Part shown: in pieces, positions 39,717 through 62,982 of the stretch
Layout of the letters: each line of letters begins with the position of its first letter
Numbering within the stretch: the first letter of the stretch is position 1
Assembly: GCF_013911755.1 (NCBI RefSeq)
Contig: NZ_JACESP010000008.1
Location: forward strand, 1-64,000
Origin: Sphingosinicella sp.
Lineage (GTDB): Bacteria; Pseudomonadota; Alphaproteobacteria; Sphingomonadales; Sphingomonadaceae
Direction: 5' to 3'
Length of the DNA: 64,000 nucleotides
The notes under the pieces: model-generated
Told to the model about the DNA's origin: nothing
Database searches by the model: none
Seen by the model: only the letters and a program-made list of their open reading frames with translations
Program-made: the position numbers and the translations under genes

Positions 39717-39808
39717 GGAGACGTGGGTGAGTGGCTGAAACCAGCGGTTTGCTAAACCGCCGTACGGGGATACCCGTACCGAGGGTTCGAATCCCTCCGT
39801 CTCCGCCA
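39717..39808 (+). tRNA. tRNA-Ser (GCT anticodon)
   Basis: Acceptor arms GGAGACG/CGTCTCC, discriminator G and encoded CCA. A long variable arm (TACGGGGATACCCGTA) is typical of serine tRNA. The anticodon loop TTGCTAA gives GCT, reading AGC and AGT codons. Its last 15 bases are the left attachment site of the mobile element that follows. Confidence 0.98.
39794..39808 (+). repeat. attL, left direct repeat of the mobile element
   Basis: CCTCCGTCTCCGCCA forms the 3' end of tRNA-Ser(GCT), including its CCA. The identical 15 bases occur at 62968-62982 in the same orientation. An integrase gene begins 146 bp downstream, so this is the integration site. Confidence 0.88.
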
Positions 39809-39901
39809 CCGAGCGCCTTCGAGGATGCTCAAAAAGTCCCAGAAAACCTTGCTTTTCAGCCGATTTCCGGCTAGCCTGTTCTCTCATTTAATCCCTTTGG
39901 A

Positions 39902-39942
39902 TGCCCCCAAATCCCATGCTGTACGGGACAGTTTTGGGGGCA
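39902..39942. repeat. Inverted repeat upstream of the integrase
   Basis: TGCCCCCAAA (39902-39911) and TTTGGGGGCA (39933-39942) are perfect 10-bp inverted repeats 21 bases apart. A third partial copy (GGGGGCAC) begins at 39957. Placement between attL and the integrase start suggests integrase arm-type or regulator binding sites. Confidence 0.6.
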
Positions 39943-39954
39943 CCGGTTTGAGAG

Positions 39955-41280
39955 ATGGGGGCACTCGTGCTGACGGACCTCCAGGTGAGGAAAGCCAAAC
40001 CCGCCGAGCGGGACTACAAAATCACCGATTCTGGTGGGCTGTACCTCTACGTGACGCGCAAGGGCGCGAAGTCCTGGCGCCTCAAATACCGATTCGCAGA
40101 CCGGGAAAAGCGGCTGGTGTTCGGCCTCTACCCCGAGGTGTCTCTGGATGCGGCGCGGAAGCTGCGCGACGAAGCGCGGCAGCAGCTCCGCGACTTCCGC
40201 GACCCTGCCGTCGAGAAGCGCAAGCGGAAGCTCGCGGCGTCTGCCGCGGCGATGGAGACGTTCGAGAAGCTGGCACGCGCGTGGCACGCGCTGCAGGCGC
40301 CGCGTTGGGCACCGGTACATGCGGCAGACGTGATTTCCAGCCTTGAGAACGATGTCTTCCCGCACCTCGGCAAGCTTCCGATCCCGGCCATCGACAGCCG
40401 GGTGATCCTCGCGACCTTGCGCAAGGTCGAGGCACGGGGTGCGATCGAAACGGCGCGGCGGCTGCGCCAGCGCATCTCGTCGATCTTCTGCTACGCGATT
40501 GCCGAAGGCGTCGCCGATCATGATCCCGCCTCCGGCATCGTGAAGGCGATGAAGCCGGTGCCGAAGAAAGGCCGGCAGCCGGCGATGTTGCGGATCGAGG
40601 ATGCGCGCGGCGTGCTGCTGGCGGCGGAAACCTCCGATGCAACGCCCGTGGTGAAGCTCGCGTCGCGGCTGCTCGCGCTCACCGCAGTGCGGCCCGGCGT
40701 CATCCGCGGGGTGACCTGGGACGAGTTCGAGAACATCGACTGGGATAGGTTCGATCCTGTCGTCAGCGGCGAGCTGCCGCTGTGGCGTATCCCCTCTGCG
40801 CGAATGAAGCTGGTGCTTGCGCGCAAGGACGAGACGGCGTTCGATCATCTGGTGCCGCTCTCCCGGCAGTCTGTTGCCGTGCTCCGCGCCATGCGAACGC
40901 TCACGGGCAGGAACCGGCTGGTGTTCCCGTCGCAGCGCCATGCGCATCGGCCGATGAGCGAGAACGCCATCGGCTATCTTTACAACCGCGTCGGCTTCCA
41001 CGGCCGTCATGTGCCGCACGGCTGGCGCGCGAGCTTCTCGACGATCATGAACGAGGTTGCCGAGCGCAGCGCCCGCGAGAGCGGCCAACGCATCCTTGCC
41101 GAGCTCGATGCCAAGGTCATCGACCTGATGCTTGCGCATGTTCCTGCGAACACGGTGGAAAGCGCCTACAACCGGGCGGCGTTCATGGATCGCCGCATCG
41201 AGATCGCGCAGGACTGGGCGGACCTGCTGTGCGAGGGGCTCGCCGAGCCTGTCGATTTGCTGGAAGGCAACCGCCGCTAG
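39955..41280 (+). CDS. int: Tyrosine-type site-specific integrase (P4-like)
   Basis: A 441-residue integrase with an N-terminal arm-binding DUF4102 domain (LTDLQVRKAKPAERDYKITD and LYLYVTRKGAKSWRLKYRF). The core-binding domain is followed by a catalytic domain with Arg246 (TAVRPGVIRG), the HxxR pair His355/Arg358 (HGWRASFST) and the nucleophile Tyr405 (ESAYNRA). Enzymes of this type insert elements into tRNA 3' ends. The adjacent tRNA-Ser and matching repeat at the far end show where it acts. Its stop overlaps the end of a convergent AlpA-like gene by 4 bp. Confidence 0.95.
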   Translation: MGALVLTDLQVRKAKPAERDYKITDSGGLYLYVTRKGAKSWRLKYRFADREKRLVFGLYPEVSLDAARKLRDEARQQLRDFRDPAVEKRKRKLAASAAAMETFEKLARAWHALQAPRWAPVHAADVISSLENDVFPHLGKLPIPAIDSRVILATLRKVEARGAIETARRLRQRISSIFCYAIAEGVADHDPASGIVKAMKPVPKKGRQPAMLRIEDARGVLLAAETSDATPVVKLASRLLALTAVRPGVIRGVTWDEFENIDWDRFDPVVSGELPLWRIPSARMKLVLARKDETAFDHLVPLSRQSVAVLRAMRTLTGRNRLVFPSQRHAHRPMSENAIGYLYNRVGFHGRHVPHGWRASFSTIMNEVAERSARESGQRILAELDAKVIDLMLAHVPANTVESAYNRAAFMDRRIEIAQDWADLLCEGLAEPVDLLEGNRR

Positions 41281-41459
41281 CGGATCTCTGCGATCCATGC
41301 GTCGATCTCGGACTCATACCAGCCAACGCACGTCGCGCTGAATCGAACCGGCGCCGGGAATGATCCGGCCTTCACAGTGCGTGCGATCGTCGTGCGGCTG
41401 AGGCTGGTACGCCGGGTCACGTCACGGATCCCAACAAACCGGTCGGTGAGCAGCGGCAC
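41277..41459 (-). CDS. AlpA-family helix-turn-helix regulator (first)
   Basis: A 60-residue excisionase-like protein. VGIRDVTRRTSLSRTTIARTVKAGSF is the MerR-like helix-turn-helix of the AlpA family, and the C-terminus WYESEIDAWIAEI matches as well. AlpA proteins control integrase expression or directionality in P4-like elements. It is convergent with the integrase and overlaps its stop by 4 bp. It lies 3 bp downstream of the second AlpA-like gene, same strand. Confidence 0.85.
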   Translation of the reverse strand: MPLLTDRFVGIRDVTRRTSLSRTTIARTVKAGSFPAPVRFSATCVGWYESEIDAWIAEIR

Positions 41460-41462
41460 GCC

Positions 41463-41669
41463 CTACTCCGCCGGCAGGTCGTCGACATGGAAGAACATCG
41501 GGCTCTTCATCCATGCGCTGACGGCGGACTCGCGCCAGCCGGTGCAGCGCGTGGCGATCCGGACCTGGCGTGGGAACGTGCCGCTTTGCATCTTCCTGTA
41601 GAGTGTCGAGCGGCTGAGCCCGGTGCGGTCGAGGACGGCGTGCAAGCGCAGGATACGGTCATGGGACAT
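41463..41669 (-). CDS. AlpA-family helix-turn-helix regulator (second)
   Basis: A 68-residue AlpA-like protein: RILRLHAVLDRTGLSRSTLYRKMQSGTFPRQVRI is the DNA-binding part, and GWRESAVSAWMKSP matches the C-terminus. It is a paralogue of the gene 3 bp downstream, with clear sequence divergence. Two tandem copies suggest separate roles, for example one controlling excision and the other transcription of the element. Confidence 0.87.
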   Translation of the reverse strand: MSHDRILRLHAVLDRTGLSRSTLYRKMQSGTFPRQVRIATRCTGWRESAVSAWMKSPMFFHVDDLPAE

Positions 41670-42028
41670 GGCTGGTCCTTCCTTAAGCGGTTGTCAGCCC
41701 CCCTTGCGAAGATCAGGAAGTCCAGAATTGGCGCACGCGTCAAGAGTGCCAAAACAGTGCGCAAACAGGGAGATAGTACGTTCTGGAAGCATACGGACGC
41801 ACGTGAACGCCGATTGATGCTTATTGACGCAAAGATATTTTTGATAGGGGCTGATAATTACCATCTCAGGAGGTTCCGCGGTGCAAAAGTCACGCGAATC
41901 ACTTCGCGTCAAAAGTATAAAATCATGGAACCGGATGTCATTTCAGCAATTCCGCGTTCATGCGCATTGGTGTAGGCAGCGCGCAAGTCCGGCAATACAG
42001 CGGGACGCAAAGAACAGGGTCTTTTCTC
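41670..42028. other. Intergenic region between AlpA and mucR
   Basis: These 359 bp hold the divergent promoters of the AlpA pair and mucR. The middle (about 41740-41960) is noticeably AT-rich for the neighbourhood. AGGAGG at about 41869 precedes a GTG at 41881, but the frame behind it has no recognisable protein. No RNA gene was recognised. Confidence 0.5.
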
Positions 42029-42463
42029 ATGACAGAACAGAACACGGCGCATCAGGAACTCCTGATGCTCACCGCCGAGATTGTCTCATCGCATGTCGCC
42101 AACAACACGGTCGCGGTCTCCGATCTGCCGATCCTCATCGCGAACGTCTACGCGGCGCTCGCGAAGCTCGGCGGCGTGGTTGAAGTGGAGAAACCCAAAC
42201 AGGAGCCTGCCGTCTCTGTCCGTTCGTCGGTGAAGCCCGACTTCATCACCTGTCTCGAAGACGGCAAGAAACTCAAGATGCTGAAGCGCCACCTGATGAC
42301 GCACTTCAACATGACCCCCGACGAATACCGGGCGAAGTGGGGTCTTCCCGCCGACTATCCGATGGTCGCACCGAACTACGCGCTGCAGCGCCAGGAACTG
42401 GCGAAGAAGATCGGGCTCGGCACCAAGCGCACGACGCCGGGGCGTGGCAAGAAGAAGGTCTGA
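42029..42463 (+). CDS. MucR/Ros family zinc-finger regulator
   Basis: A 144-residue regulator with the Ros/MucR zinc-finger block: FITCLEDGKKLKMLKRHLMTHFN (residues 73-94), then MTPDEYRAKWGLPADYPMVA. These proteins bind AT-rich DNA, often as repressors of exopolysaccharide, conjugation or virulence genes. A basic C-terminal tail (TTPGRGKKKV) is present. It is located in the regulatory end of the element, so it may silence the element's genes. It is followed by a strong hairpin terminator. Confidence 0.92.
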   Translation: MTEQNTAHQELLMLTAEIVSSHVANNTVAVSDLPILIANVYAALAKLGGVVEVEKPKQEPAVSVRSSVKPDFITCLEDGKKLKMLKRHLMTHFNMTPDEYRAKWGLPADYPMVAPNYALQRQELAKKIGLGTKRTTPGRGKKKV

Positions 42464-42470
42464 GGCTACA

Positions 42471-42502
42471 GCCCCGCGCCGCCGCGTGCGGCGGCGCGGG
42501 GC
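42471..42502 (+). terminator. Terminator hairpin after mucR
   Basis: GCCCCGCGCCGCCGC (42471-42485) and GCGGCGGCGCGGGGC (42488-42502) pair perfectly over 15 bp around a two-base loop, 7 bp after the mucR stop. TTCCTGATT follows. Confidence 0.85.
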
Positions 42503-42769
42503 TTCCTGATTATGTGACGCCAAGCGTCGAAGCGGATAGCCACCCCGCCCTCACGGGCGGGGTGTTGTCGTTTGTACCGTCCTGAGGATCGGGAGCGGGC
42601 GTCACGGGCTTTAGGCGGGCCTCGCCGGCCTGCAACCTGCCTGCGGCAGGTCTTCCACTCGCGTTCCAGCCCTTCGGGTGCACGCCGCCTCATGCGGTCC
42701 GCCTCTCCCCGTTCCTGCCGCCCGCCCCGCCCTCCGGCCGGGGCCGCGGCTGTTGGCAGGAGAAAGACG
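42503..42769 (+). other. Hairpin-rich leader before the sigma-like gene
   Basis: There is no convincing protein here. Hairpins are dense: CACCCCGCCC/GGGCGGGGTG (42541-42550 and 42555-42564), ACCTGCC/GGCAGGT (42635-42641 and 42645-42651) and GCCCCG/CGGGGC (42724-42729 and 42739-42744). The first is followed by TTGTCGTTTG and looks like a terminator or attenuator. The rest could be a structured 5' leader or a small RNA. Confidence 0.5.
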
Positions 42770-43171
42770 ATGAACGGCAAATCTGTACCTGAACCCAGTG
42801 TGCCCCTTGAGCGCGACCGGCACGCGGTGATGCGGGCATGGCTGCGGAAGCTGCCCGAGCGGACTTTGATGGTGTTCATCGCCCACAGGGTCGAGGGCAA
42901 GGCCTACGCCGAGATCGCCGGTGAGCTGAGGATCGGCGAGTGGCGGGTGCGCTGGCATATGCGGAAGGCCATCCGGCACATACTTAAGATCGGCAAGCCC
43001 TACCGGGAAGCGTTCGCCGCGCTCGACCCGGTATCGCAGCAGGTCATGGAGCTGGCCTGGGACGGGCTCCTCAACGACCGGATCGCGCTGCGGCTCGGCC
43101 TCTCTGTCCGCGATGTCGAGACGCGCATGGCGGCGGCGCTGGTGGCGCTGCACAAGGCCGCAACCCTCTGA
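42770..43171 (+). CDS. Sigma-70 region 4-like protein with two HTH segments
   Basis: A 133-residue protein with two sigma-region-4-like helix-turn-helix stretches: AHRVEGKAYAEIAGELRIGE with RVRWHMRKAIRHIL (about residues 40-75), and LAWDGLLNDRIALRLGLSVRD with VETRMAAALVALHKA (about 95-130). No region 2 is visible, so it is not a full sigma factor. It probably binds DNA as a regulator of the element. The ATG has GGCAGGAGA upstream. No known family name could be assigned beyond the HTH type. Confidence 0.7.
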   Translation: MNGKSVPEPSVPLERDRHAVMRAWLRKLPERTLMVFIAHRVEGKAYAEIAGELRIGEWRVRWHMRKAIRHILKIGKPYREAFAALDPVSQQVMELAWDGLLNDRIALRLGLSVRDVETRMAAALVALHKAATL

Positions 43172-43255
43172 TCAGGGGGTTGCGGCGTCCCTACTCGCGG
43201 CAACAGCCTGTTCTTGCAGTGCAAAGTCATGTCTGAGTTGCTAGGAAGGTCTCCT

Positions 43256-44179
43256 ATGCGCACGAGCCTCGATCATCTTCCCTTGCCCAAGCAGCGCGAG
43301 CTCGAACGCGTCGTTGAGATTCTGTTCGAGGAGTTTGGTGACACCCTCGCGCTTGCCCAGCACCAGTGGAAGAAGAAGGGCCGCATCACCAAGGTTATCC
43401 TCTACGGCAGCTACGCGCGCGGCGGCTGGGTCGACGAGCCGCACACCGCCAAGGGCTACAAGTCCGACTTCGACCTTCTCGTCATCGTCAACGACAAGCG
43501 GCTGACCGACTATGTGACGTACTGGGCGAAGGCCGAGGAACGCTTCCACCGGGAGTACGGCATCACCAAGTCGATCAAGACGCCGGTCAACTTCATCGTG
43601 CACACGCTGCAGGAGGTGAATGACGGCCTTGCCCATGGCCGGTACTTCTTCATGGACGTCGCGAAGGACGGCATCGCGCTCTACCAGAGCGACGACAGCG
43701 TGCTCCATACGCCGAAGCCCAAGACGCCGAAGGATGCGCTCAAAATGGCGCAGGAATACTATGAAGAATGGTATCCAAGTGCCGGTGAGTTTTACGATGA
43801 TTTTCGTTCAAATGTAGAACGGCAGCGTTTCAAAAAAGCGGCTTTTGAACTGCATCAGTGTGTAGAACGCCTCTATCACTGCGTCCTTCTCGTCTGCACA
43901 TTCTATACGCCCCACGTTCACAACCTCGGTTTCTTGCGGTCGCAGGCCAACCTGATCGACCGCCGATTGATGTATGTCTGGCCCGAGGACAACCGCAAGC
44001 AGCGCGCGATGTTCGAGAAGCTGAAGCAGGCCTATGTCAAAGCCCGCTACTCGAAGCACTACCGGATCAGCGAAGAAGAACTAACATGGCTGGGGGAGCA
44101 GGTCGAGGAGCTCGGCCGTGTCGTCCATGCCGTATGCAGCGAGCGGATTGCGGAGCTGAAAGGGACGGCAAAGGGGTGA
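43256..44179 (+). CDS. Nucleotidyltransferase-HEPN domain protein
   Basis: A 307-residue two-domain protein. The N-terminal nucleotidyltransferase has the motif GSYARG (residues 51-56) and the metal-binding acidic pair in KSDFDLLVIV (70-73 SDFD). The C-terminal domain (FELHQCVERLYHCVLL, then YTPHVHNLGFL) is HEPN-like, of the kind used for substrate binding in MNT-HEPN fusions. The RNase-type RX4-6H motif is not evident. Such proteins transfer nucleotides to small molecules, tRNA or proteins, and some act as antitoxins. AGGAAGG precedes the ATG. Whether it is resistance, toxin control or defence is unknown. Confidence 0.78.
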   Translation: MRTSLDHLPLPKQRELERVVEILFEEFGDTLALAQHQWKKKGRITKVILYGSYARGGWVDEPHTAKGYKSDFDLLVIVNDKRLTDYVTYWAKAEERFHREYGITKSIKTPVNFIVHTLQEVNDGLAHGRYFFMDVAKDGIALYQSDDSVLHTPKPKTPKDALKMAQEYYEEWYPSAGEFYDDFRSNVERQRFKKAAFELHQCVERLYHCVLLVCTFYTPHVHNLGFLRSQANLIDRRLMYVWPEDNRKQRAMFEKLKQAYVKARYSKHYRISEEELTWLGEQVEELGRVVHAVCSERIAELKGTAKG

Positions 44180-44267
44180 GTTTACCCTGTCTCGATTGCC
44201 CCCGTTCTCCACGATCCGGCACAGAGTGCAGCCTTTCAGTCTTGCAGCGGAAAAGCTGCCCGGTAGA

Positions 44268-46142
44268 TCATGTCCGCGGCAAGGGACTGTCGGGCTCCTG
44301 CGTCTGCTTCGCGGCCGGGTCCTCATCATCCTCGTCTTGGTCATCGGGTGTCTGAAAGGTCGGTGCTGTGGGAACCGTGTCGTCAATCGGCGCGGCATCG
44401 GGGAGCATGTCGAACTCGTTGTCCATCGCCTGATCGCCCACCAGCATGAACCCGAAGAGCACGGCAGCGGCCAGTTCTGGCCTGATCGACCAGCGACGTG
44501 CAGATGCTGCGCGTGCCGGGCGAACCGCCGGCTGCGGCTCGCGGAGGGGCTGTGGCTGCGCGCGATTGAGCCGATCGGCCACGGCATCGCCCGTGCGCTT
44601 GGCGAGCGCGACGATGGTGAGGGTCGGGTTTGCCCAGCCCGAGCTGGGGAACAGCGAACTTCCGGCGACATAAAGGTTTGCGACGCCGTGCACGCGGCCT
44701 TCGGGGTCGCACACACCCTCGGCAGGGCTTGCGGCCATGCGCGTCGTGCCGATGTGATGGTAGCCGCCGATCGGATGCGAACTGATGAGCGGGTCGGTCG
44801 TCCAGCGGCGCCCGCTGCCGAGCAACCACTCGGCCACCGCGACGCGGCCCATGCCGAGACGTTCGAGTTCGTGCCCGAAATCCTCCACGAGTACGGCGAC
44901 GCTTTCGACGTCGAGTTCGGTGAGGCGCCAGTCGAGCTTGATGCGCGGCACGCCGAGGGGGTCGCTTTCCGTGTCGAGCTGCACGCGGCTATCGGGGTTC
45001 GGCGCTTGCTCGGCGCGCACGAGGAGTGCGAGATCGAGGCCGCCCATCTTGTGGAGCAGCCATGGACGCAGCGGGTCGGCGTGTTCCTGAACGAACGAGG
45101 CCGCGCGCTTGGTGAGCATCCAGAGCCCGCGCCCGGCGCGGGTCGGCGCCGTCTTGTGCTTGAGGCCCGAATAGGCGCGCATACCGATGAACTGGCGCGC
45201 ATCCGCAGGCTGCCGTCCCGCGACAATCATCGAGGTGTTGAGAATGCGGCGCTCCGCCTGCCGCGCGGCGCTCGGCGCGATGAGCGCGGCGACCTTGCGG
45301 CCGTTCAATCGGTGCCGCCGCGCGAAGCCCTTGAGCAGCGTCCATGCGGCGCCCTCCACCACGCGTCCGCCGCGCGCGTGCGGATGCTCCATGAAGAAGC
45401 GGCCGACAAGGTCGCGGTCGTTGCCGAGGCGATTCGCGAGCAGCAGGCGCGGGTTTTCAAGACCGCCAGCGGCAAGCACGAAGTAGCGGGCGTGGACGCG
45501 AAGCGTGCGCCCGGTGAGACTTTTCGCCTCGACATGCGTGACGGCGCCCGCTCCGCCGGCCGCGATGCGGGTGACAGTGGCGTGGGTGACGATGGTGCAG
45601 CGCGGATGCTCGCGGAGGTCCGCGCAGGCATCGAACGTGAAGCGATTGAAGCGCTCGTCGAACTGCCATGTGCCAAGCGTGAGCCGGGCAGGGTCGAGGT
45701 CGGGGAGCGGTACGCCCGCGGCCTTCATCGACTCGGCCGTATCCGGGCCCTGTGGGAAGCCCAGTTCCGCCCACGCCTCGCGGTAATAGGGTTCCAGCGT
45801 TTCGCGAGAGATCGGCCAGCCCGAGTGGGGCACCCAGTCGCGGTGTTCGAAATCGATGGGATCGAGTTCGGCACAGCGGCCGCCCCAGATCGCCGTGGTG
45901 CCGCCGAAGAAGCGCAGGCGCGAATCTTCGAGGTCGTAATAGTCTTCGCCGACATTGCGGCCCGCGCCGAGGCCCGCCGTGTCCGGCTCGTAGTCGAGGC
46001 CGCCGCTTTCGAGGAGGACGACGCTGCGCCCTTGCGCGAGCAGGCGGCGGGCAACACCTATGCCCGCCGCGCCTGCGCCGATGATGCACACTTCCGTCAG
46101 CCGCGTGGCCGGAATATCGTCATGTTCAAGGTCGAAGTGCAT
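44268..46142 (-). CDS. GMC family FAD oxidoreductase
   Basis: A 624-residue flavoprotein. The FAD-binding GAGAAGIGVARRLLAQGRSV is at residues 22-41, then GGTTAIWGGRCAELDPIDF, AAGGLENPRLLLAN and the C-terminal YHHIGTTRMA (active-site histidine region) with PSSGWANPTLTIVALA. It oxidises an alcohol or sugar, with electrons passed to oxygen or an acceptor; the substrate is unknown. The last about 90 residues, with an acidic tail (DDQDEDDEDP), are an unusual extension. It is a single gene, convergent with the HEPN-domain gene. Confidence 0.87.
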   Translation of the reverse strand: MHFDLEHDDIPATRLTEVCIIGAGAAGIGVARRLLAQGRSVVLLESGGLDYEPDTAGLGAGRNVGEDYYDLEDSRLRFFGGTTAIWGGRCAELDPIDFEHRDWVPHSGWPISRETLEPYYREAWAELGFPQGPDTAESMKAAGVPLPDLDPARLTLGTWQFDERFNRFTFDACADLREHPRCTIVTHATVTRIAAGGAGAVTHVEAKSLTGRTLRVHARYFVLAAGGLENPRLLLANRLGNDRDLVGRFFMEHPHARGGRVVEGAAWTLLKGFARRHRLNGRKVAALIAPSAARQAERRILNTSMIVAGRQPADARQFIGMRAYSGLKHKTAPTRAGRGLWMLTKRAASFVQEHADPLRPWLLHKMGGLDLALLVRAEQAPNPDSRVQLDTESDPLGVPRIKLDWRLTELDVESVAVLVEDFGHELERLGMGRVAVAEWLLGSGRRWTTDPLISSHPIGGYHHIGTTRMAASPAEGVCDPEGRVHGVANLYVAGSSLFPSSGWANPTLTIVALAKRTGDAVADRLNRAQPQPLREPQPAVRPARAASARRWSIRPELAAAVLFGFMLVGDQAMDNEFDMLPDAAPIDDTVPTAPTFQTPDDQDEDDEDPAAKQTQEPDSPLPRT

Positions 46143-46490
46143 GGGCGTTGCTGCGATGGCAGATGATATCTGAACCAGCGATCAATGGGGAGAGAAGATT
46201 TCCAGAATCTGCATCGCGCATGGTGATGCGTACTTTTTTACGAAACGCAGAAGTGGCCGAAATCAGCCGCAAAGCTGTCATTGCCTGTGGCTTCTAGCCT
46301 GCCATGTGAGAGTTTCGGAAACTTGCCGTCACAATGAACGATCCGTCGCCGGCGCATCGCCACGGGGGTGAGGCTGTTACCAACCTCGGCACGGACGAAG
46401 CTCGCACTGCATAATGGCTACGGTCAGCACAGTGGCGAGAATAAGATACATATGTTTCATTGAATGATTTTCTATGATACATATGCCACT
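46143..46490. other. Intergenic region upstream of chrB
   Basis: This 348-bp gap has no convincing gene. Divergent promoters for the GMC gene and the chr operon should be here. The right end, from 46430, is AT-rich and contains the direct repeats described separately. Confidence 0.5.
46445..46485 (+). promoter_or_regulatory. chrB promoter with paired repeats, candidate ChrB operator
   Basis: GATACATATG occurs at 46445-46454 and again at 46476-46485, 31 bp from start to start. TATGAT (46473-46478) is a plausible -10 box overlapping the second copy, and the first copy lies over the -35 position. chrB starts at 46491, so transcripts would be nearly leaderless. ChrB family proteins are chromate-responsive regulators, so these repeats are good candidates for the operator. 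Confidence 0.5.
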
Positions 46491-47450
46491 ATGTCGCATT
46501 CAATCGGCTCCGAACACTGGTTGGCGCTGCTCCATCAGCTCCCGGCGAAGCCGCCCTACCTGCGCGTGAAGATTTGGCGCCGCCTGCAGGCGATCGGCGC
46601 CGTGCCGCTCAAGAACGCAGTGCATGTGCTGCCCCGGCAAGAAGAGAATGAAGCCGCCTTCCGCGAACTGCTCGCCGAGATCGAGTCGAGCGGCGGCGAG
46701 GCCGTCCTGATCGATGCGCGGATGATTGAGGGTCAGAGCGATGCCGATCTGCGCGGCCTTTTTGATGCGGGACGCGACGCTGACTATAATGAGTTGACAC
46801 AGGCCGCGCGCCGCCTGCTCGAGACAGGGCCGCCCTCGGGCGCGGAAATCGCGAAGCTCCAGCGACGGCTCTCGGACATCATCCGACTCGACTTCTTCGG
46901 CGCGCACGGCCGCCAGGATGCCGAGGCGACCCTGCGTGAGCTGGACGCGCAGCGTTATGTCCATCCGGACGTCGGCCGCACAGGCGAGCAGGCACCCTTG
47001 TCTACCGCCGACCTCAAGAACCGCGTCTGGGTGACACGGCGCGGCGTCCATGTCGATCGTATTGCCAGCGCGTGGCTGATCCACCGGTTCATCGACCCCG
47101 AGGCGTGTTTCAAGTTCGTCGACGGCAAAAGCTACGCACCGCGGCCGGGTGAGCTGCGCTTCGATATGGTCGATGCAGAGTTCACACACGAAGGCGATCA
47201 GTGCAGCTTCGAGACCCTGTTGCTGCGCGCTGAACTGGAAAGCGACCCGGCGCTCGTCGCGATTGGCGAGATCATCCACGATCTCGACATTGGCGACGGC
47301 AAGTTCCGGCGCCCGGAGACGCCGGGTCTCGGCGCGATGCTGTCGGGGGTTTGCGCGTCGACTGACGATGACCTGCAACGCATTGCCAGTGGCGGTGACG
47401 CGCTCAACCAGTTCCACGCCTTCTTCAGTAATCGAAAAGCCGAGCGATGA
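46491..47450 (+). CDS. chrB: Chromate resistance regulator/protein ChrB
   Basis: A 319-residue ChrB. The N-terminal domain has PPYLRVKIWRRLQAIGAVPLKN (winged-helix-like) and the C-terminal domain has WVTRRGVHVDRIASAWLIHRFIDPEACFKFVD, typical of ChrB. In Ochrobactrum tritici ChrB senses chromate and controls the chr operon. chrA begins in the last codon (ATGA overlap). An ATG at 46464 in frame exists but overlaps the promoter-like repeats; the 46491 ATG is preferred. Confidence 0.93.
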   Translation: MSHSIGSEHWLALLHQLPAKPPYLRVKIWRRLQAIGAVPLKNAVHVLPRQEENEAAFRELLAEIESSGGEAVLIDARMIEGQSDADLRGLFDAGRDADYNELTQAARRLLETGPPSGAEIAKLQRRLSDIIRLDFFGAHGRQDAEATLRELDAQRYVHPDVGRTGEQAPLSTADLKNRVWVTRRGVHVDRIASAWLIHRFIDPEACFKFVDGKSYAPRPGELRFDMVDAEFTHEGDQCSFETLLLRAELESDPALVAIGEIIHDLDIGDGKFRRPETPGLGAMLSGVCASTDDDLQRIASGGDALNQFHAFFSNRKAER

Positions 47451-48847: not shown

Positions 48848-48860
48848 AGGAGACGCTCCA

Positions 48861-49571
<711 letters not shown>

Positions 49572-49637
49572 GCCGCGTGGAGGGCGCGCCGGGCTCAGAC
49601 GCTCATCCGTATTGTCAATGTGCGGCGCGCTGAGTAC

Positions 49638-50072
49638 ATGGCAATCGTGCTCGAACTGTTCGCCTCCCGCGCGCGGCGCTTTATCGCCGCACTTTGTGCA
49701 GCGCTCATGCTGCTGTACGCAGGGGCCGTTCCTGCAAAAGCGCTGAACAACATCCAGCACGCGTCGTCTGCGACAATCGACCATGAGCATGCGGCGCCTG
49801 GCACGCTTTCATTCGATGCGGTCCATGAACACGATGACGCACACCATGATCAAAGTGACGAGGCAGGGCGTGAACAGCCCGGTGATCATATTGCCGGTGG
49901 TCCTCACCATCATCATGGCGACAATGGCTCTAGCCTGATATTCCCAAGTCTCGCACGTTACCTCGAAATTGATTTTTCAGGAAAAATGCACGGTCTCCGC
50001 GCGGACCGACCGATCGCCGGTCTTGGCGCACTTGGACAAGAGCGCCCTCCCAGAACCCCGCTGAACGCCTGA
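49638..50072 (+). CDS. His-rich exported protein of the metal efflux operon
   Basis: A 144-residue protein with a hydrophobic N-terminal signal (FIAALCAALMLLYAGAVPAKA). A histidine- and aspartate-rich segment (HEHDDAHHDQSDEAG and GPHHHHGDNG, about residues 63-98) probably binds metal in the periplasm. The C-terminus resembles small proteins found ahead of czcC. It is the first gene of the efflux operon. Role inferred: metal storage, sensing or delivery. No named family was recognised. Confidence 0.7.
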   Translation: MAIVLELFASRARRFIAALCAALMLLYAGAVPAKALNNIQHASSATIDHEHAAPGTLSFDAVHEHDDAHHDQSDEAGREQPGDHIAGGPHHHHGDNGSSLIFPSLARYLEIDFSGKMHGLRADRPIAGLGALGQERPPRTPLNA

Positions 50073-50134
50073 GTTCCTGCGCCGCATCGTGAGGCGCGGG
50101 GTGTTTCCACGCCTTTCAGCGAGGCCGTTATCTC

Positions 50135-51411: not shown

Positions 51412-51415
<4 letters not shown>
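50135..51415 (+). CDS. czcC: Outer membrane efflux protein, CzcC-like (TolC family)
   Basis: A 426-residue TolC-type outer-membrane channel protein. A signal peptide (ALLFGVLLAAVAQPARA) is followed by TLDEVLSRVASSDPAVAANAARLEAV and long coiled-coil helices. WYERTWERGGKREARIGAARA is a CzcC-like stretch. It forms the exit duct for the RND pump encoded downstream. The ATGA overlap with czcB (51412-51415) shows coupling. The subfamily is metal-efflux type by neighbours. Confidence 0.9.
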
Positions 51416-55894
<4,479 letters not shown>

Positions 55895-55910
55895 TTCAGG
55901 AGACTATTGC

Positions 55911-56633
55911 ATGTTTACTCGCACGATCGCGCCGCCGTGGATGTCCACCCGGAGGCTCCTGCTCGGCGTCAGTTTGATCCTCCTGACCCTCGCTGCGGGC
56001 GCGGAGGCCTGGGCACATAATGTCGCCGAAGGCGACAAGGGCTATATTCAGGAAAGCACCGGCTTTCTCTTCTGGCCCTTCGTCTATCTCGGCGCCAAGC
56101 ACATGGTCACCGGCTACGACCATCTGCTCTTCCTCTTTGGGGTCATCTTCTTCCTTTACCGGATGAAGGATATCGGCCTCTATGTAACGCTGTTCGCGAT
56201 CGGTCATTCGACGACGATGCTGTTCGGCGTCCTGAGCGGCATCAGCGCCAACGCCTATATCATTGATGCGATCATCGGCCTTTCGGTCGTTTACAAAGCG
56301 CTCGACAATCTCGGTGCCTTTCAGCGCTGGTTCGGCTTTCAGCCGGACACCAGGGCCGCGACGCTGATCTTCGGATTCTTCCATGGCTTCGGTCTTGCAA
56401 CGAAGATCATCGAGTTCGAGATCGCGAACGATGGGCTGATCCCGAACCTCCTTGCGTTCAACATCGGGGTCGAGATCGGGCAATTGCTCGCGCTCGCCGC
56501 AATTCTCATCCTCATGGGCTACTGGCGCCGAACCTCAAGTTTCATGCGTCACGCCTTCGCCGCCAATGTGCTGCTGATGACCGCGGGCTTCGTGCTCGTC
56601 GGCTACCAGCTCGCCGGCTACGCAATCAGCTAA
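55911..56633 (+). CDS. HupE/UreJ-like membrane protein
   Basis: A 240-residue membrane protein with a cleavable or anchoring N-terminal helix. The HupE/UreJ_2 pattern follows: YLGAKHMVTGYDHLLFLFGVIFF, GHSTTMLFGVLSGISANAY and IFGFFHGFGLATKI. Conserved His and Asp residues in these helices suggest metal handling. Related proteins are linked to nickel or cobalt uptake or efflux. Context in a czc-like operon favours metal transport. TCAGGAGA precedes the ATG at 55911. Confidence 0.8.
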   Translation: MFTRTIAPPWMSTRRLLLGVSLILLTLAAGAEAWAHNVAEGDKGYIQESTGFLFWPFVYLGAKHMVTGYDHLLFLFGVIFFLYRMKDIGLYVTLFAIGHSTTMLFGVLSGISANAYIIDAIIGLSVVYKALDNLGAFQRWFGFQPDTRAATLIFGFFHGFGLATKIIEFEIANDGLIPNLLAFNIGVEIGQLLALAAILILMGYWRRTSSFMRHAFAANVLLMTAGFVLVGYQLAGYAIS

Positions 56634-56649
56634 TTCAAAGGAATCCGCC

Positions 56650-57282
56650 ATGTTCAATTCCCAGCGCCCCCGTCTCGAAGACCTGCCGACCACCGGCCAG
56701 CTCCTTCGCGCAACTGGCCTTGCCATCATCAGTGCAGGTGCGATTCTGATCGCAATCGTTCTTCCCAGCGAATATGCGATCGACCCGACCGGCGTCGGGC
56801 GACAGCTCGGCCTGACGAAGATGGGCGAGATCAAGACTCAACTCGCAGAAGAAGCGGCACGTGATGCCGTGTCCGAAACCATGGCCCCTACGACCACGGC
56901 CGTACCGGCTGTGACCGAAGCCCCCACCGCCGCTGCGTCGACCGTTGCCACCGCGCAGCGGTCCGACACGATGACGCTTACCCTTGCGCCCGGCGAGGGC
57001 GCCGAGATCAAAGCGAAAATGACGAACGGTGCGCGTCTCGCCTTCGACTGGTCGGTTGAAGGTGGTCATGTCAATTTCGACACGCACGGCGATCCCGAAA
57101 ATGCGCCGCGCGGTTTCTATCATGGCTACGGCAAGGGGCGTGAGTCGACCGGCGAGAAGGGGGAACTCGTCGCCGCTTTCAACGGCACGCATGGCTGGTT
57201 CTGGCGCAACCGCTCGGGGAGTCCGGTGACCATCACGCTGCGTACCGAAGGCGCCTATAGCGAAATTCGCCGCGTCGTCTGA
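56650..57282 (+). CDS. Membrane-anchored periplasmic protein of metal operon
   Basis: A 210-residue protein with one N-terminal membrane helix (ATGLAIISAGAILIAIVLPSE), a Thr/Ala/Pro-rich linker (about residues 75-105) and a folded domain with MTLTLAPGEGAEIKAKMTNG and WSVEGGHVNFDTHGDP. Such transmembrane anchor proteins occur near HupE-like and czc genes in proteobacteria; function unknown. It lies 16 bp after the HupE-like gene, with similar strand and spacing. Confidence 0.75.
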   Translation: MFNSQRPRLEDLPTTGQLLRATGLAIISAGAILIAIVLPSEYAIDPTGVGRQLGLTKMGEIKTQLAEEAARDAVSETMAPTTTAVPAVTEAPTAAASTVATAQRSDTMTLTLAPGEGAEIKAKMTNGARLAFDWSVEGGHVNFDTHGDPENAPRGFYHGYGKGRESTGEKGELVAAFNGTHGWFWRNRSGSPVTITLRTEGAYSEIRRVV

Positions 57283-57342
57283 GGACGCAGGCGTGACCTC
57301 CGGCCGGCCGGCTCGGCCGGAGGCATAGCAAGGACCAAAGCC

Positions 57343-58677
57343 ATGCTCGATGTGCTTTCGAACCGGACGTATCGCCACCTCTTCCTCGCGCAGATCATCG
57401 CGCTCGTCGGCACGGGCCTCGCAACGGTCGCGCTCGGGCTTCTCGCCTATGAAATCGCGGGGGCGGATGCGGGCGCCGTGCTCGGCACCGCGATGGCAAT
57501 CAAGATGATTGCCTATATCGGCATCGCTCCTGTCGTCGGTGCCTACGCGAACCGCCTGCCGAGGAAGACCTTCCTTGTCGCGATGGATGTGGTTCGCGGA
57601 CTTGTCGCCTTGATACTCCCCTTCGTCGACCAGGTGTGGCAAATCTACATCCTGATATTCATTCTCCAGTCCGCGTCGGCGGGGTTCACGCCGTCCTTCC
57701 AGGCAACGATCCCCGATGTCCTGCCCGACGAGAAGGCGTATACGAAAGCACTGTCGCTCTCGCGGCTTGCTTATGACATGGAAAGCCTCGCAAGCCCCCT
57801 GCTCGCTGCGGCGCTGCTCGGCATCATGAATTTCCACTGGCTCTTCTCGGGCACGGCGATCGGCTTTGCCGCCTCGGCGCTACTCGTGCTGTCAGTGACC
57901 TTTCCGCAGTCCGAAGCGAAACCCGCAAGCGGCGGCATCTACGACAGAACGACGCGCGGCGCCCGCCAATATCTGAAAACCCCCCGCCTGCGCGGCCTTC
58001 TCGCCGTTACGCTTGCTGCTGCCGCAGCGAGCGCAATGGTCATCGTCAACACGCCGGTGCTCGTTCGCGGCGCGCTTGGACTCGGTCAAAGCGAGGTTGC
58101 GATCACGTTTGCAGCCTTCGGCGGGGGCTCAATGATCGCAGCGTTACTCCTGCCGCGCCTTCTCGACCGCACGACGGACCGCAGCGTCATGATCGCCGCG
58201 GCAGCTTGCATGAGTGTCGTGCTCGCACTGCTTGCCGCCTCATGGTCGCTTGCCAATGCACCGGGCCACTGGCCGACCGTCCTCGCGGGCTGGTTCGCGC
58301 TGGGGCTCTGCTATGCCGCGAGCATCACCCCAGGCGGCCGGCTGCTGCGGCGCTCGTCAGGCGCAGAGGGCCGCCCCGCATTGTTCGCAGCACAATTCGC
58401 GCTCAGCCATGTCTGCTGGCTCATCGCCTATCCCCTCGCTGGCCAGTTCGGTGCGCGCGCCGGCTTGGGCACGGCGTTCGGCGCAAGCGCGGCGATGGCG
58501 TTCGTCGGCACGTTGGTCGCGTGGTGGATCTGGCCACGGAAAGATCCCGAAATCATCGAGCATCGTCACGACGACTTGTCCGCCGACCATCCGCATCTTC
58601 GAAAAGAACACGCCGGAGGCACCGCTGGGCATCCTTACATCATTGACGAGCTGCACCGCAGTTGGCCTGATCACTGA
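57343..58677 (+). CDS. MFS transporter, metal-operon type
   Basis: A 444-residue major facilitator with twelve hydrophobic segments. LFLAQIIALVGTGLATVALGLLAYEIAG is the first helix region, and the loop NRLPRKTFLVAMDVVRG is the MFS signature. The C-terminal tail is histidine-rich (EHRHDDLSADHPHLRKEH), as in metal exporters such as NreB. It is the last gene of the efflux run. Nickel or cobalt export is possible but unproven; substrate unknown. Confidence 0.83.
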   Translation: MLDVLSNRTYRHLFLAQIIALVGTGLATVALGLLAYEIAGADAGAVLGTAMAIKMIAYIGIAPVVGAYANRLPRKTFLVAMDVVRGLVALILPFVDQVWQIYILIFILQSASAGFTPSFQATIPDVLPDEKAYTKALSLSRLAYDMESLASPLLAAALLGIMNFHWLFSGTAIGFAASALLVLSVTFPQSEAKPASGGIYDRTTRGARQYLKTPRLRGLLAVTLAAAAASAMVIVNTPVLVRGALGLGQSEVAITFAAFGGGSMIAALLLPRLLDRTTDRSVMIAAAACMSVVLALLAASWSLANAPGHWPTVLAGWFALGLCYAASITPGGRLLRRSSGAEGRPALFAAQFALSHVCWLIAYPLAGQFGARAGLGTAFGASAAMAFVGTLVAWWIWPRKDPEIIEHRHDDLSADHPHLRKEHAGGTAGHPYIIDELHRSWPDH

Positions 58678-58783
58678 TTGCAGACGCATGCTACGTTTGG
58701 AGCGTCGAATGCAGATGCTTGTTGGAACGATTTTTCCGCTTTCCGGATGTGACCAGCTCAGAAAAGCGGGTGCGAAGTCGATG

Positions 58784-58999
58784 TCATGTCTGGTTCTGCT
58801 CGGCTTCGAACGCCCGTTTCCCCTTGCGCCGCCACAGCGCAACGACCGCGCCGCGCCGCTCCCTGTCCGCCTGCTGCACGAGCCCGAGCAGCGCCCCGTA
58901 GATCGCCGCCCTGTCATCCTCGACGAGCACGTCGAGCCTGGCCTTCACGACGAGCCCGCCGAGTTCGATGAGCCGGCGCGTCCGCTCGCGGCGCTTCAC
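58784..58999 (-). CDS. traD: Conjugal transfer protein TraD family
   Basis: A 71-residue protein from a GTG start: KRRERTRRLIELGGLVVKAR matches the Ti-plasmid TraD family, followed by AAIYGALLGLVQQA. The open frame continues upstream into the traC region, with residues such as RAEKRLRVLRNRLQ that resemble a longer TraD N-terminus, but without an ATG. The true start is therefore uncertain. In Ti plasmids traD is followed by traG; here no traG exists. Confidence 0.75.
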   Translation of the reverse strand: MKRRERTRRLIELGGLVVKARLDVLVEDDRAAIYGALLGLVQQADRERRGAVVALWRRKGKRAFEAEQNQT

Positions 59000-59015
59000 G
59001 ACCCAGTCCCGCGTA

Positions 59016-59339
59016 TCAGCCCGCGTCCGCCGCGCCTGTAGCCGATTGCGGAGAACGCGGAGCCGCTTCTCGGCGCGCAGTAGCCTTCGCAGTGCCAGCC
59101 TGAGCCTGTTTCCCGCGCAGAAAGAAAGCCGCGCCCGCCGTGCGCCATTCCTCCCTCTGTACCATGTCGGTGGCCGCGGCGGCGGTGATCAGCACGCCCG
59201 CAAGCACATCGGCCCCAAGCGTATCAGCACCAGTCGCGGTGACGAGCTGCCCAAGCTCTCTCAGCTTCCGGTCCTGAAGCGCCTTGGCCTTGTCAGCAAG
59301 CAGCTTCATCTCAGCATCATAGTCACGGGGCCTGCGCAT
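59016..59339 (-). CDS. traC: Conjugal transfer protein TraC family
   Basis: A 107-residue protein: RRPRDYDAEMKLLADKAKAL and LGQLVTATGADTLGADVLAG match TraC of Agrobacterium-type mobilization systems, an accessory protein of the relaxosome. It is divergent from traA, with the likely oriT between them. GGAAGGA precedes the ATG at 59339. An alternative upstream start at 59357 is less likely. Confidence 0.82.
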   Translation of the reverse strand: MRRPRDYDAEMKLLADKAKALQDRKLRELGQLVTATGADTLGADVLAGVLITAAAATDMVQREEWRTAGAAFFLRGKQAQAGTAKATARREAAPRSPQSATGAADAG

Positions 59340-59455
59340 GGGATGTAGTCCTTCCATTTGCGGTGATGTGCCCGAGGCTACGAGTCGTTCTGGCGCGCGG
59401 TAAAGAGGCCGAACCTTGGTGAGACCACCCGGTCCCTCGCGAGATTCGATCTTGT

Positions 59456-59484
59456 GAGGGCGCGCTTATACGTCGTGCCGACGT
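59456..59484. other. Candidate oriT nick region
   Basis: GAGGGCGCGCTTATACGTCG (59456-59475) resembles the oriT core of the Ti-plasmid and RSF1010 family; its complement reads ATAAGCGCGCCCTC. A short inverted repeat ACGTCG-TGC-CGACGT follows at 59470-59484. The site lies between divergent traC and traA, where the oriT of Ti-type systems is found. Confidence 0.68.
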
Positions 59485-59513
59485 GGCTTGCCGGGTGTAG
59501 ATCGTGTGCCGCC

Positions 59514-62381
59514 ATGGCAATCTATCACTTCAGCGCGAAGGTCATCAGCCGGAGTACCGGCGCGAGCGCGCTTGCGTCCGCCGCGTACCGCTCGGCCTCG
59601 CGGCTGCACGACCAGCGCCTCGATCGCCATCACGACTTCACGAACAAGGCCGGCGTCATCCACTCCGAAGTGATGCTGCCCGAGAACGCCCCTGAGCAGC
59701 TTCGGAATCGCGAAGCGCTCTGGAACAGCGTCGAGGCCGCCGAGGTGCGCAAGGACGCGCAGCTCGCCCGCGAGGTCGAGTTCGCGCTGCCAAGGGAGCT
59801 GGAACAGGCGGACGCCGTTCAGGTGGCGCGCGAGTTCGTGCGAACCGAGTTTGTCGAGCGCGGCATGTGCGCAGACCTCAATGTCCACTGGGACATCGGC
59901 GCCGACGGCATGGCGAAGCCCCACGCCCATGTCATGCTCACCATGCGCGAAGTGGACGCGGACGGCTTTGGCGCCAAGGTGCGCGACTGGAACAGCACGC
60001 AGCTGCTGGAACATTGGCGTGAAGCCTGGGCTCAGCACCTCAACCGCGCGCTCGCCGAGCGCGACCTCGACATCACCGTCGATCACCGTAGCCTCGAGGC
60101 GCAGGGCATCGATCTCGAGCCGCAGAACAAGATCGGCCCGGCAGCATCGCGCATGGCGGACGTAGGGCTCACCGGAGAGCGTCTCGACGAGCACCGCGCC
60201 ATCGCGCGCGCCAACGGCGAACGTATCCTCAAGCAGCCCGAGGTGGCGTTCGATGCGCTGACGCACAGCCAGGCGACGTTCACGCGGCGCGAGCTTGCGA
60301 TGTTCGTGCACCGACACAGCGAGGGCAAGGACCAGTTCGACCGTGTGCTCGCCGCCGTCGAAGCCTCGCCGGAGCTTGTCGCGCTCGGGAAAGACGGCCG
60401 CGAGCAGGAGCGGTTCACATCCCGCGCGATGCTGGAGACCGAGCAGCGGCTCGAGCAGGCCACGGAACGCCTACAGAAGCAGGACAAGCACGTCGTCCGC
60501 GACCTGTTCCGCGACCATGCTGTCGCGCGCGCCGAGCGGCACGGTCTTGTGCTCTCGTCCGAGCAGCGCGCAGCGCTCGACCATGTCACCGAGCCCAAAG
60601 GCCTCTGTGTCATTGTCGGCTATGCCGGAACGGGAAAGTCGGCGCTGCTCGGCGTGGCGCGCGAAGCGTGGGAGGATGCCGGCTACCGCGTGCGCGGGCT
60701 CGCGCTCTCCGGCATCGCCGCCGAGAACCTCGAAGCAGGGTCGCGCATCGCGTCGCGCACGATCGCCGCGCAGGAGCACGCCTGGGCAAACGGCACCGAT
60801 CGCCTGACGTCCCGCGATGTGCTCGTTATCGACGAGGCCGGGATGATCGGCACGCGGCAGATGGAACGCGTGCTGTCACATGCGAGCGAGGTCGGTGCGA
60901 AGGTGGTGCTCGTCGGCGATCCGCAGCAGCTGCAGGCGATCGAGGCGGGCGCGGCGTTCCGCTCCATCCATGAGCGTCACGGCGGCGTCGAGGTCACCGA
61001 GATCCGCCGCCAGCACGACGCCTGGCAGCGCGACGCCGTGCGGCAGCTGGCGACGGGCAGAACCCAGGAGGCGATCCAGGCGCTCAAGGAACATGACCGT
61101 GTCCATGCAGCGCCGACCGAGGCCGAGGCAAAGAAACAGCTCATCGACCGCTGGGACAGGGACCGGAAGGCGCAGCCGCAGAAGAGCCGGCTGATCCTCG
61201 CGCACACGCGCGCCGACGTCGCATCACTGAACCCACTCGCGCGCCAGCGCCTGCGGCTTGGCAAACAGCTCGGTGATGACGTCCGCGTCGAGACCACCAA
61301 GGGGCCAAAGCCGTTCGCGCGCGGCGACCGGGTGATGTTCCTGCGGAACGAGAAGAGCCTAGGGGTGAAGAACGGCTCGCTTGGGCGGGTCGAGAGCGTG
61401 GGCCCCGCGCGCATGGCGGTGATGCTCGATGACGGTAGGCCCCTGCAGTTCGACACGAAGCTCTACACCGACATCGACCATGGCTATGCCGCCACGATCC
61501 ACAAGGCGCAGGGCGTCACCGTGGACCGGTCCTATGTGCTCGGAACATCAGGCATGGACCGGCACGGCGCCTATGTGGCGCTGTCGCGCCACCGCGAACG
61601 GGTCGATCTCTACTACGGCAAGGAGACGTTCAAAAACGAGCAGCAGCTGATCCGCACGCTCGGCCGTGACCGCGGCAAGGACATGGTCGGCGACTATGGG
61701 CCGGTCGCAGACAAGGCCGAGGCGTTTGCCGCGAGACGCGGCATCACGCTCCGGGAGCGGGTCAAGGCGATCACGGTCAAGGTCCGCGACATGTTCGAAG
61801 GGCTGCAGCTCAAAAGCACGCCGATCCAGGCTCCGCAGCCCCAGCTGGAGCCGGCGGTCGAGCAGTATGCGCGCACCGTGCACAAGGTCCGCGAGATGGG
61901 CATCGCAGGCGTGCCGATGAGCGAGCCCTTGCGCGCCATGCACGAACGCGACGAGGCCGCGCTCGATGCGATCCGGCCCGTCGCGGCGCGCGACCTTCGG
62001 AATGCATGGCGCGCGGACCTGAAGCTCCTCGACACGATGGCGCGCGGCGATGTGCGGCAGGCGCGTGCTATCCTCGATGAGGCCGAGCGTGTCCGCAGCG
62101 ATCCCGCGTACCGCGCCGACCGGTTCGTCGCGGAATGGACAAAGCTCAGGAAGCAGCAGGAGCACGCCCGGTTCTGGGGCGAGGAGCACAAGCTCCCGAA
62201 GATCAACGCGGGCATGGCGGGACTTGCGAAGAGCCTCGAACGCGATGCGCAGATGGAATCCCTGCTGCGTCCTCGTGCCCGCGAACTCGGGCTCGGTATC
62301 GGCATGGAACCGGCGCGCGGGCTGTCCCGGGAGCTCTCAGACTGGTTCGGCCTCTCGCGCGGGCGGGGTCTTAGCCGTTAG
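59514..62381 (+). CDS. traA: Ti-type conjugative relaxase/helicase TraA
   Basis: A 955-residue bifunctional protein. The N-terminal MobA/MobL relaxase has AIYHFSAKVISRSTGASALASAAYRS (residues 2-27) and the metal-binding HAH at 137-139. The TraI-like helicase half has Walker A GYAGTGKS (369-376), DVLVIDEAGM and the UvrD-like C-terminal block HGYAATIHKAQG. It nicks oriT and unwinds the strand for transfer. The ATG at 59514 is the family start. It lacks the long C-terminal extension of some TraA proteins. Confidence 0.95.
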   Translation: MAIYHFSAKVISRSTGASALASAAYRSASRLHDQRLDRHHDFTNKAGVIHSEVMLPENAPEQLRNREALWNSVEAAEVRKDAQLAREVEFALPRELEQADAVQVAREFVRTEFVERGMCADLNVHWDIGADGMAKPHAHVMLTMREVDADGFGAKVRDWNSTQLLEHWREAWAQHLNRALAERDLDITVDHRSLEAQGIDLEPQNKIGPAASRMADVGLTGERLDEHRAIARANGERILKQPEVAFDALTHSQATFTRRELAMFVHRHSEGKDQFDRVLAAVEASPELVALGKDGREQERFTSRAMLETEQRLEQATERLQKQDKHVVRDLFRDHAVARAERHGLVLSSEQRAALDHVTEPKGLCVIVGYAGTGKSALLGVAREAWEDAGYRVRGLALSGIAAENLEAGSRIASRTIAAQEHAWANGTDRLTSRDVLVIDEAGMIGTRQMERVLSHASEVGAKVVLVGDPQQLQAIEAGAAFRSIHERHGGVEVTEIRRQHDAWQRDAVRQLATGRTQEAIQALKEHDRVHAAPTEAEAKKQLIDRWDRDRKAQPQKSRLILAHTRADVASLNPLARQRLRLGKQLGDDVRVETTKGPKPFARGDRVMFLRNEKSLGVKNGSLGRVESVGPARMAVMLDDGRPLQFDTKLYTDIDHGYAATIHKAQGVTVDRSYVLGTSGMDRHGAYVALSRHRERVDLYYGKETFKNEQQLIRTLGRDRGKDMVGDYGPVADKAEAFAARRGITLRERVKAITVKVRDMFEGLQLKSTPIQAPQPQLEPAVEQYARTVHKVREMGIAGVPMSEPLRAMHERDEAALDAIRPVAARDLRNAWRADLKLLDTMARGDVRQARAILDEAERVRSDPAYRADRFVAEWTKLRKQQEHARFWGEEHKLPKINAGMAGLAKSLERDAQMESLLRPRARELGLGIGMEPARGLSRELSDWFGLSRGRGLSR

Positions 62382-62390
62382 GTTCAGACC

Positions 62391-62897
62391 ATGGCAACCG
62401 ACTCATCCCCGGCAGAGGCGTTCGAGGCGCTCAGGCGCGAGGTGGCGCTGCTCCGCCGCGCGCTCGAAGGGCTCGCCGCCGAGCAGAAGGCGCAGCCCGA
62501 TTACAGCGGCGTGCTCACGGGCATCGGGGAGCGGATCAAGGAACAGAACGCAACGCTCGGCGCTATGGCCAAGGCGCCTGCGCTTCAGCTGACCCCCGAG
62601 GCGATCGGACAGCACATCCTGCGCGCCAGCCAACAGGTGCGCGCAGAGGAAGCCCGGCTGCTCGGGCACGCGCAGAACGGTATGGCGGCAGCAGCGCGTC
62701 AGATCGAGAGCGCGCTTGCCACCGCGCGGACGGCGCAGGACCAGCAGCGAGCCGTCAAATGGTACGCAGCGGCCGGCGCTTTCGTCGGCGCAGTGCTTAT
62801 GCTGTTGGCATCGCTGATTGCGCCGGTTCTAGAGGCGCAAATTCAAGACGTCGCAGTCACCACCAATGCGATTGATGCCTCATATCGGGGGCATTAG
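62391..62897 (+). CDS. DUF6118-like protein, possibly truncated
   Basis: A 168-residue protein with an N-terminal charged coiled coil (AFEALRREVALLRRALEGLA, then YSGVLTGIGERIKEQNATLG) and one hydrophobic helix (WYAAAGAFVGAVLMLLASLI, about residues 124-143). The layout fits DUF6118 proteins encoded next to traA in sphingomonad mobile elements, which are longer. The C-terminus after the helix may be cut at the element boundary, 71 bp away. Function unknown. Confidence 0.65.
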   Translation: MATDSSPAEAFEALRREVALLRRALEGLAAEQKAQPDYSGVLTGIGERIKEQNATLGAMAKAPALQLTPEAIGQHILRASQQVRAEEARLLGHAQNGMAAAARQIESALATARTAQDQQRAVKWYAAAGAFVGAVLMLLASLIAPVLEAQIQDVAVTTNAIDASYRGH

Positions 62898-62967
62898 GAG
62901 GGACATCTTGTACAAATACATTCTTTAAATATTTGATTTTACATTGTGATTATTAAAATTTCACTTT

Positions 62968-62982
62968 CCTCCGTCTCCGCCA
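62968..62982 (+). repeat. attR, right direct repeat of the mobile element
   Basis: CCTCCGTCTCCGCCA is identical to the last 15 bases of tRNA-Ser(GCT) at 39794-39808 and in the same orientation. The bases before it (TTT) differ from the tRNA (TCC), so this is only the core repeat. The AT-rich stretch just upstream (about 62898-62967) is inside the element. Confidence 0.85.

Follow-up and report, generated by a model that had tools for sequence, protein, structure and literature searches.

The window, a 64,000 bp stretch at the start of a Sphingosinicella sp. contig, contains an island of ~23 kb behind a tRNA-Ser(GCT) gene, which we interpret, with a probability of about 90%, as an integrative and mobilizable element (IME) that depends on a helper for its transfer and carries metal-resistance genes as cargo. 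This reading is based on a relaxase with a conserved oriT and the absence of coupling and secretion genes, on an exact two-copy repeat at the island ends, an empty site in a same-genus genome (G003) and a sister element in that genome (contig C5), and also on two AlpA-like genes, the dN/dS values of the integrase and TraA, the TIGR02768 and MobQ scores of the relaxase, and VirD4 and VirB4 genes on other contigs of the host. In a general account (PMC5704250), IMEs are described as having their own integration functions and their own relaxase, with MobQ among the relaxase families, and no type IV secretion genes; the island has an integrase and direct att repeats for site-specific integration, its own relaxase and oriT, and lacks a complete type IV secretion system. 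The genes were scanned with Pfam, NCBIfam, PADLOC and PHROGs, the subset of genes differing between scans, and the features are as follows.

39717..39808, + strand: tRNA-Ser(GCT), the target gene, left whole
39794..39808, + strand: attL core, the last 15 bases of the tRNA (exact repeat; empty site in G003)
39955..41280, + strand: tyrosine integrase (PF22022 and PF13356 above cut-offs; 96% aa identity to G003:C5)
41280..41462, - strand: AlpA-like excisionase candidate 1, an open frame (PF05930, 9.4e-13; phrog_2790 excisionase)
41466..41669, - strand: AlpA-like excisionase candidate 2 (PF05930, 2.8e-17; phrog_2790 excisionase)
41960..42463, + strand: MucR/Ros regulator (PF05443; unmatched in the G003:C5 sister stretch)
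42572..43171, + strand: sigma-region-4-like DNA-binding protein (Pfam; 76% aa identity in the G003:C5 sister element)
43214..44179, + strand: nucleotidyltransferase-HEPN protein (Pfam)
44268..46142, - strand: GMC-type oxidoreductase, part of the cargo (Pfam)
46464..47450, + strand: ChrB (PF09828, PF20229)
47447..48847, + strand: ChrA chromate transporter (PF02417; TIGR00937 above cut-off)
48831..49571, + strand: Fe/Mn superoxide dismutase in a ChrC-like position (PF02777)
49620..50072, + strand: histidine-rich small protein without an assigned family, ahead of the pump operon (no Pfam match)
50135..51415, + strand: CzcC-type outer-membrane protein (PF02321)
51412..52662, + strand: CzcB-type membrane-fusion protein (PF13437, PF16576)
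52652..55894, + strand: CzcA/CusA-type heavy-metal RND pump (TIGR00914, 1557 bits, cut-off 701)
55833..56633, + strand: HupE/UreJ-family protein (PF13795)
56650..57282, + strand: protein without an assigned family (no Pfam match)
57343..58677, + strand: MFS transporter (PF07690)
58787..59188, - strand: TraD-family gene, an open frame with approximate start (PF06412, 2.2e-18)
59016..59357, - strand: second small TraD-family gene, in place of TraC (PF06412, 3.6e-13)
59436..59485, + strand: oriT, with inverted repeat 59436-59444/59450-59458 and conserved core 59460-59485 (sequence comparison with relaxase relatives)
59514..62381, + strand: Ti-type TraA relaxase-helicase, MobQ, with its most likely start (TIGR02768 and NF041496 above cut-off; longest frame from 59454)
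62391..62897, + strand: small protein downstream of TraA, weakly DUF6118-like (PF19613, 0.0026, below cut-off)
62968..62982, + strand: attR core (exact repeat; right flank directly behind the core in the empty site of G003)

A preliminary description of this DNA had reported a tyrosine integrase beside tRNA-Ser(GCT), an exact 15-base repeat 23.2 kb away in the same orientation, and a relaxase, regulators and metal-resistance genes in between, and all of these are confirmed by the profile matches listed and by the properties of the repeat. The 15 bp 3' end of the tRNA has its exact second copy at 62968-62982, with 23,174 bp from attL start to attR start, and the identity between the two breaks off immediately on either side of the repeat. 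There are two copies of the core in the whole window, both strands counted, with none inside the island, and it is absent from all 100 dinucleotide shuffles; these counts, together with the empty site, exclude a chance origin of the repeat.

The comparison with the genus used six genomes, including the window's own (G000). The left flank with tRNA-Ser(GCT) is present in five of these, the window's own among them, and was unmatched in G005 when the six were searched. One of the five, G003, has a resolved empty site: its contig C40 aligns to the window's left flank with 91.5% identity over 9184 aligned bases, ending at window base 39808, the last base of the tRNA, and its next 60 bases align to the window from 62983 with a score of 52 (1000 shuffles had a mean of 21.9, sd 5.2, and none as high), against 25 for the island's left inner side and the same bases. 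Additional right-flank matches are found downstream in G003 (window 63160-63278 and 64248-64371). The right flank at the empty site is diverged from that of the window, and the entire 23 kb is missing from G003 at tRNA-Ser(GCT). Because the G003 sequence behind the tRNA aligns with the window from 62983, the segment at 62968-62982 is the right junction of the island, and the earlier prediction that in a relative the tRNA would run directly into the right flank is borne out. An open frame just past the empty site in G003 (L058:9577-10575), presumably encoding a type IB topoisomerase, is kept in the window only as a fragment behind attR (63145-63453, - strand).

The tRNA-Ser(GCT) site is an insertion hot spot. 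Behind the same tRNA, G004 carries an integrase of 52% identity and G002 a different sequence. The 15-mer occurs twice in G001, once at the tRNA on C58 and once on C39, where 62 bp from the 3' part of the tRNA accompany it, compatible with an island there.

The integrase core domain (PF00589) scores 24.3 bits, just below the cut-off of 27.1. Between the window and G003, dN/dS is 0.059 in the integrase gene and 0.118 in that of TraA, values that fit purifying selection acting on both genes. The two AlpA-like genes adjoin the integrase and probably have a role in excision, as judged from their profile matches and position. The reading of this segment as a mobilizable island, put forward in the preliminary description, gains support from the empty site, the sister element, and the relaxase and oriT; its mobility we still infer, and the excisionase-like genes at 41280-41669 had been overlooked.

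The relaxase is strongly matched by TIGR02768 TraA_Ti (893.7 bits, cut-off 590.45) and by the MobQ profile NF041496 (245.8 bits, cut-off 200), both from NCBIfam. Its presence had been correctly noted, and the start at 59454 probably needs correction: both matches begin at residue 21 of the longest frame, corresponding to the ATG at 59514, and because the TIGR02768 match begins there this is most likely the start, which places oriT outside the relaxase frame. The relaxase gene is divergent from the TraD-family genes, with the oriT core between them. The inverted repeat precedes the core, and both of its 9-base arms pair fully in the window (G-T pairs counted); in some relaxase relatives the best pairing is shorter, with 5 or 6 pairs.

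Scanning genome contigs yielded 84 relaxase relatives, of which 80 were kept. Fifty loci (L068-L117; 52-91% identity) were analyzed, 49 being labelled Alphaproteobacteria and L096 only Proteobacteria; the other 30 (L118-L147), whose matches are confined to the N-terminal part at 35-40%, were left out. The oriT core is present at 47 of the 50 loci, in agreement with the oriT-like site proposed earlier, and the three loci without it also have no relaxase start, as the contigs of L087 and L094 start within the relaxase and L109 (an S. soli record) contains just the C-terminal part of it, at 87% DNA identity to the window. L084 has one extra, unrelated copy of the oriT 9-base motif. TraD-family matches are found at 44 loci, and relatives of the small gene downstream of TraA at 29. 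The core, which we take to resemble the oriT of Ti plasmids, provides a simple marker for related modules. We note that in one Sphingomonadaceae contig (L069) two complete modules of this kind, both having an oriT core of their own, face each other within 9 kb.

Relatives of the nucleotidyltransferase-HEPN protein are encoded at 12 of the 50 loci (L071, L074, L076, L079, L081, L085, L091, L105, L106, L107, L112 and L116), as a single chain within ~10 kb of the relaxase and on either strand. The L079 copy has an internal stop, and the nucleotidyltransferase motif aspartates vary in the 13-row alignment. The protein may accompany the relaxase for addiction or defence; a specific defence reading was abandoned, the PADLOC matches being weak (best E 2.7e-6).

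The absence of secretion and coupling genes, also reported earlier, is upheld: a search at E 1e-6 with the host's VirD4 and VirB4 proteins, three of each, found no match in the island or in the rest of the window, and these families do not appear in the Pfam results of the 20 genes scanned in the window. VirB4 and VirD4 are encoded together on host contigs C23, C25 and C34, with IncP-type TraG and TrbE above cut-off on C23 and C34 and VirB4 above cut-off on C25; C34 and C46 also have weaker matches to the VirD4 family. Ti-type TraG is above cut-off for none of the three host coupling proteins. From these matches, the genes on C23, C25 and C34 are a candidate helper for transfer of the island. 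The absence of these genes would also suit an immobile remnant, derived from a larger integrative and conjugative element by loss of the type IV secretion genes, and one relaxase relative (L076) has VirB4 nearby; however, the other 49 relaxase loci, in stretches of at most 23 kb each, likewise have no VirD4 or VirB4 match, showing that the module commonly stands alone. The integrase, TraA and both cores are intact, with the two genes apparently under purifying selection, and we consider a remnant improbable.

The chrB, chrA and superoxide dismutase genes are all in one direction; the last is presumably ChrC by name, and we take the three to be a chrBAC-type chromate operon (TnOtChr). Of 397 family genomes, 180 contain at least a weak match to this block. 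A Novosphingobium pentaromativorans plasmid matches the czc operon together with HupE at 77% identity. Among plasmid records no near-identical copy of the island was found, the best one covering 23% of it at 77% identity and none covering 80%. The chromate block and the czc-type pump are predicted from their families to raise tolerance to chromate and divalent metals, and the island would be a cleanly bounded, helper-dependent element uniting these two operons, with an empty site and a sister for comparison.

The sister element in G003 is on contig C5 behind tRNA-Ser(GGA), and has the integrase (96% aa identity), sigma-like gene (76%), TraD-family gene (82%), relaxase (90%) and downstream gene (77%) in the same order as in the window. 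Its cargo differs, with a MerR regulator, a cation-efflux protein and a CzcA-type pump that is 53% alike, and the 19.4 kb searched contains no match to the MucR, nucleotidyltransferase-HEPN, GMC, chrB-chrA-superoxide dismutase or MFS genes. The attR of the sister is unmatched in this stretch, the contig ending before the sister's right end. A second relative in G003, on C78 behind tRNA-Ser(CGA), is a broken integrase with pieces 88-91% alike.

Several observations are in keeping with a pile-up in which an integrase island received the metal and mobilization blocks separately and does not act as one unit. G001:C16 has the chromate block at 91% identity, and the 35 kb examined there contain no match to the rest of the island; no relaxase match lies near the integrase relatives of G003:C78 (36 kb) or G100 (40 kb), which counts against a single travelling backbone; and among more distant relatives the relaxase goes with other integrases, as just 13 of the 50 relaxase loci have an integrase match within their flanks, 12 of these at 26-58% identity. 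We nonetheless find this account very hard to sustain, as G003:C5 keeps the integrase, the sigma-like gene and the TraD-TraA-small gene block in order downstream of a tRNA-Ser gene, a third copy of the core is lacking in the window, and the 23 kb are absent from G003 as one whole.

For the IME, we propose that the integrase would recombine the 15 bp core in which tRNA-Ser(GCT) ends, keeping the tRNA whole, the insertion point being evident from the empty site. Excision, presumably helped by an AlpA-like factor, would yield a circle with one core; TraA and the TraD-family proteins would nick oriT at 59460-59485, and a resident conjugative element, for which there are candidates in the genome, would supply the coupling protein and type IV channel by which the strand leaves. 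Excision, transfer and resistance are all predictions of this kind, and the single empty site, the PF00589 score, the lack of a Ti-type TraG above cut-off among the three host coupling proteins, the lack of a near-identical copy among plasmid records and the position of the sister's right end off its contig count against the IME reading.

The closest published elements are the traACD IMEs of Mesorhizobium of the IMEMl R88B type, which as described (PMC8627217) have Ti-like traACD genes with traA and traC divergent around oriT, are in some cases at tRNA-Ser genes, and have a putative recombination directionality factor (RDF) gene downstream of traA. The island resembles them in having traA and small tra genes arranged divergently about oriT, a tyrosine integrase and no secretion system, but its excisionase-like genes adjoin the integrase, and the gene downstream of TraA (62391-62897) is not RDF-like by Pfam or PHROGs. 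Because the RDF gene downstream of traA is lacking, we file the island as an IME with a Ti-type traA module outside the R88B type, as compared with the published description. The relaxase classes come from different profiles, those of PMC8627217 giving MOBF for Mesorhizobium and NCBIfam giving MobQ for the window. Helper transfer has been demonstrated for some IMEs (PMC5704250), whereas for this island we infer it. Sphingomonad plasmids encode a 'Ti-type conjugative transfer relaxase TraA' with a nearly full-length match (~56-59% identity among the 30 matches listed), and unlike the island these copies are on plasmids with no tRNA-gene insertion. We found no published paper on this particular element in a search that left most subscription-journal work outside.

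Of more interest than the element itself is that near-identical integrases use different tRNA-Ser genes. Integrases were taken from 59 relatives, 397 family genomes (60 matched at 1e-120) and 11 relaxase loci to give 66 rows, and with 5 short rows dropped there are 61, picked by similarity among the matches listed and not as a census. Thirty-one are behind tRNA-Ser genes (13 CGA, 9 GCT, 6 GGA and 3 TGA), 16 are behind other tRNAs, and none was found for 14. The integrases of the window, G003 and G100 form one group with support of 100/100 and lie behind GCT, GGA and GGA respectively, that of G100 being 77% alike. Mapped on the tree of 61, the target labels require 32 changes, as compared with a mean of 40.9 when shuffled (0 of 200 as low) and a least possible number of 13; the labels are clustered but switch often, and we reject the idea of one tRNA target per integrase clade. 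Frequent switching of integrase targets is already known in general (PMC4383910).

The tRNA-Ser genes concerned all close their 3' ends with CTCCGCCA, and this shared ending makes tolerance of several tRNA-Ser genes plausible. We tentatively raise the possibility, to which we give less than even odds, that the integrase is a serine-tRNA generalist that would accept the shared 3' end of several isoacceptors, so that one lineage could settle at GCT, GGA or CGA; the alternative is repeated recent changes of specificity. Were several tRNA-Ser genes acceptable to these integrases, a single lineage could accumulate islands in one genome. A search of the window's genome with the G003 upstream region and tRNA did not find tRNA-Ser(GGA), only CGA, GCT and TGA genes, and the GGA gene may sit in a contig gap. 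In this genome (L064; G000:C1:1-20000) there is also a tRNA-Ser(CGA) gene with two more integrases nearby, 55-56% alike to that of the island. Outside the island, the G+C content of the window falls to 45% at 28001-29000, the rest being mostly 58-74%.
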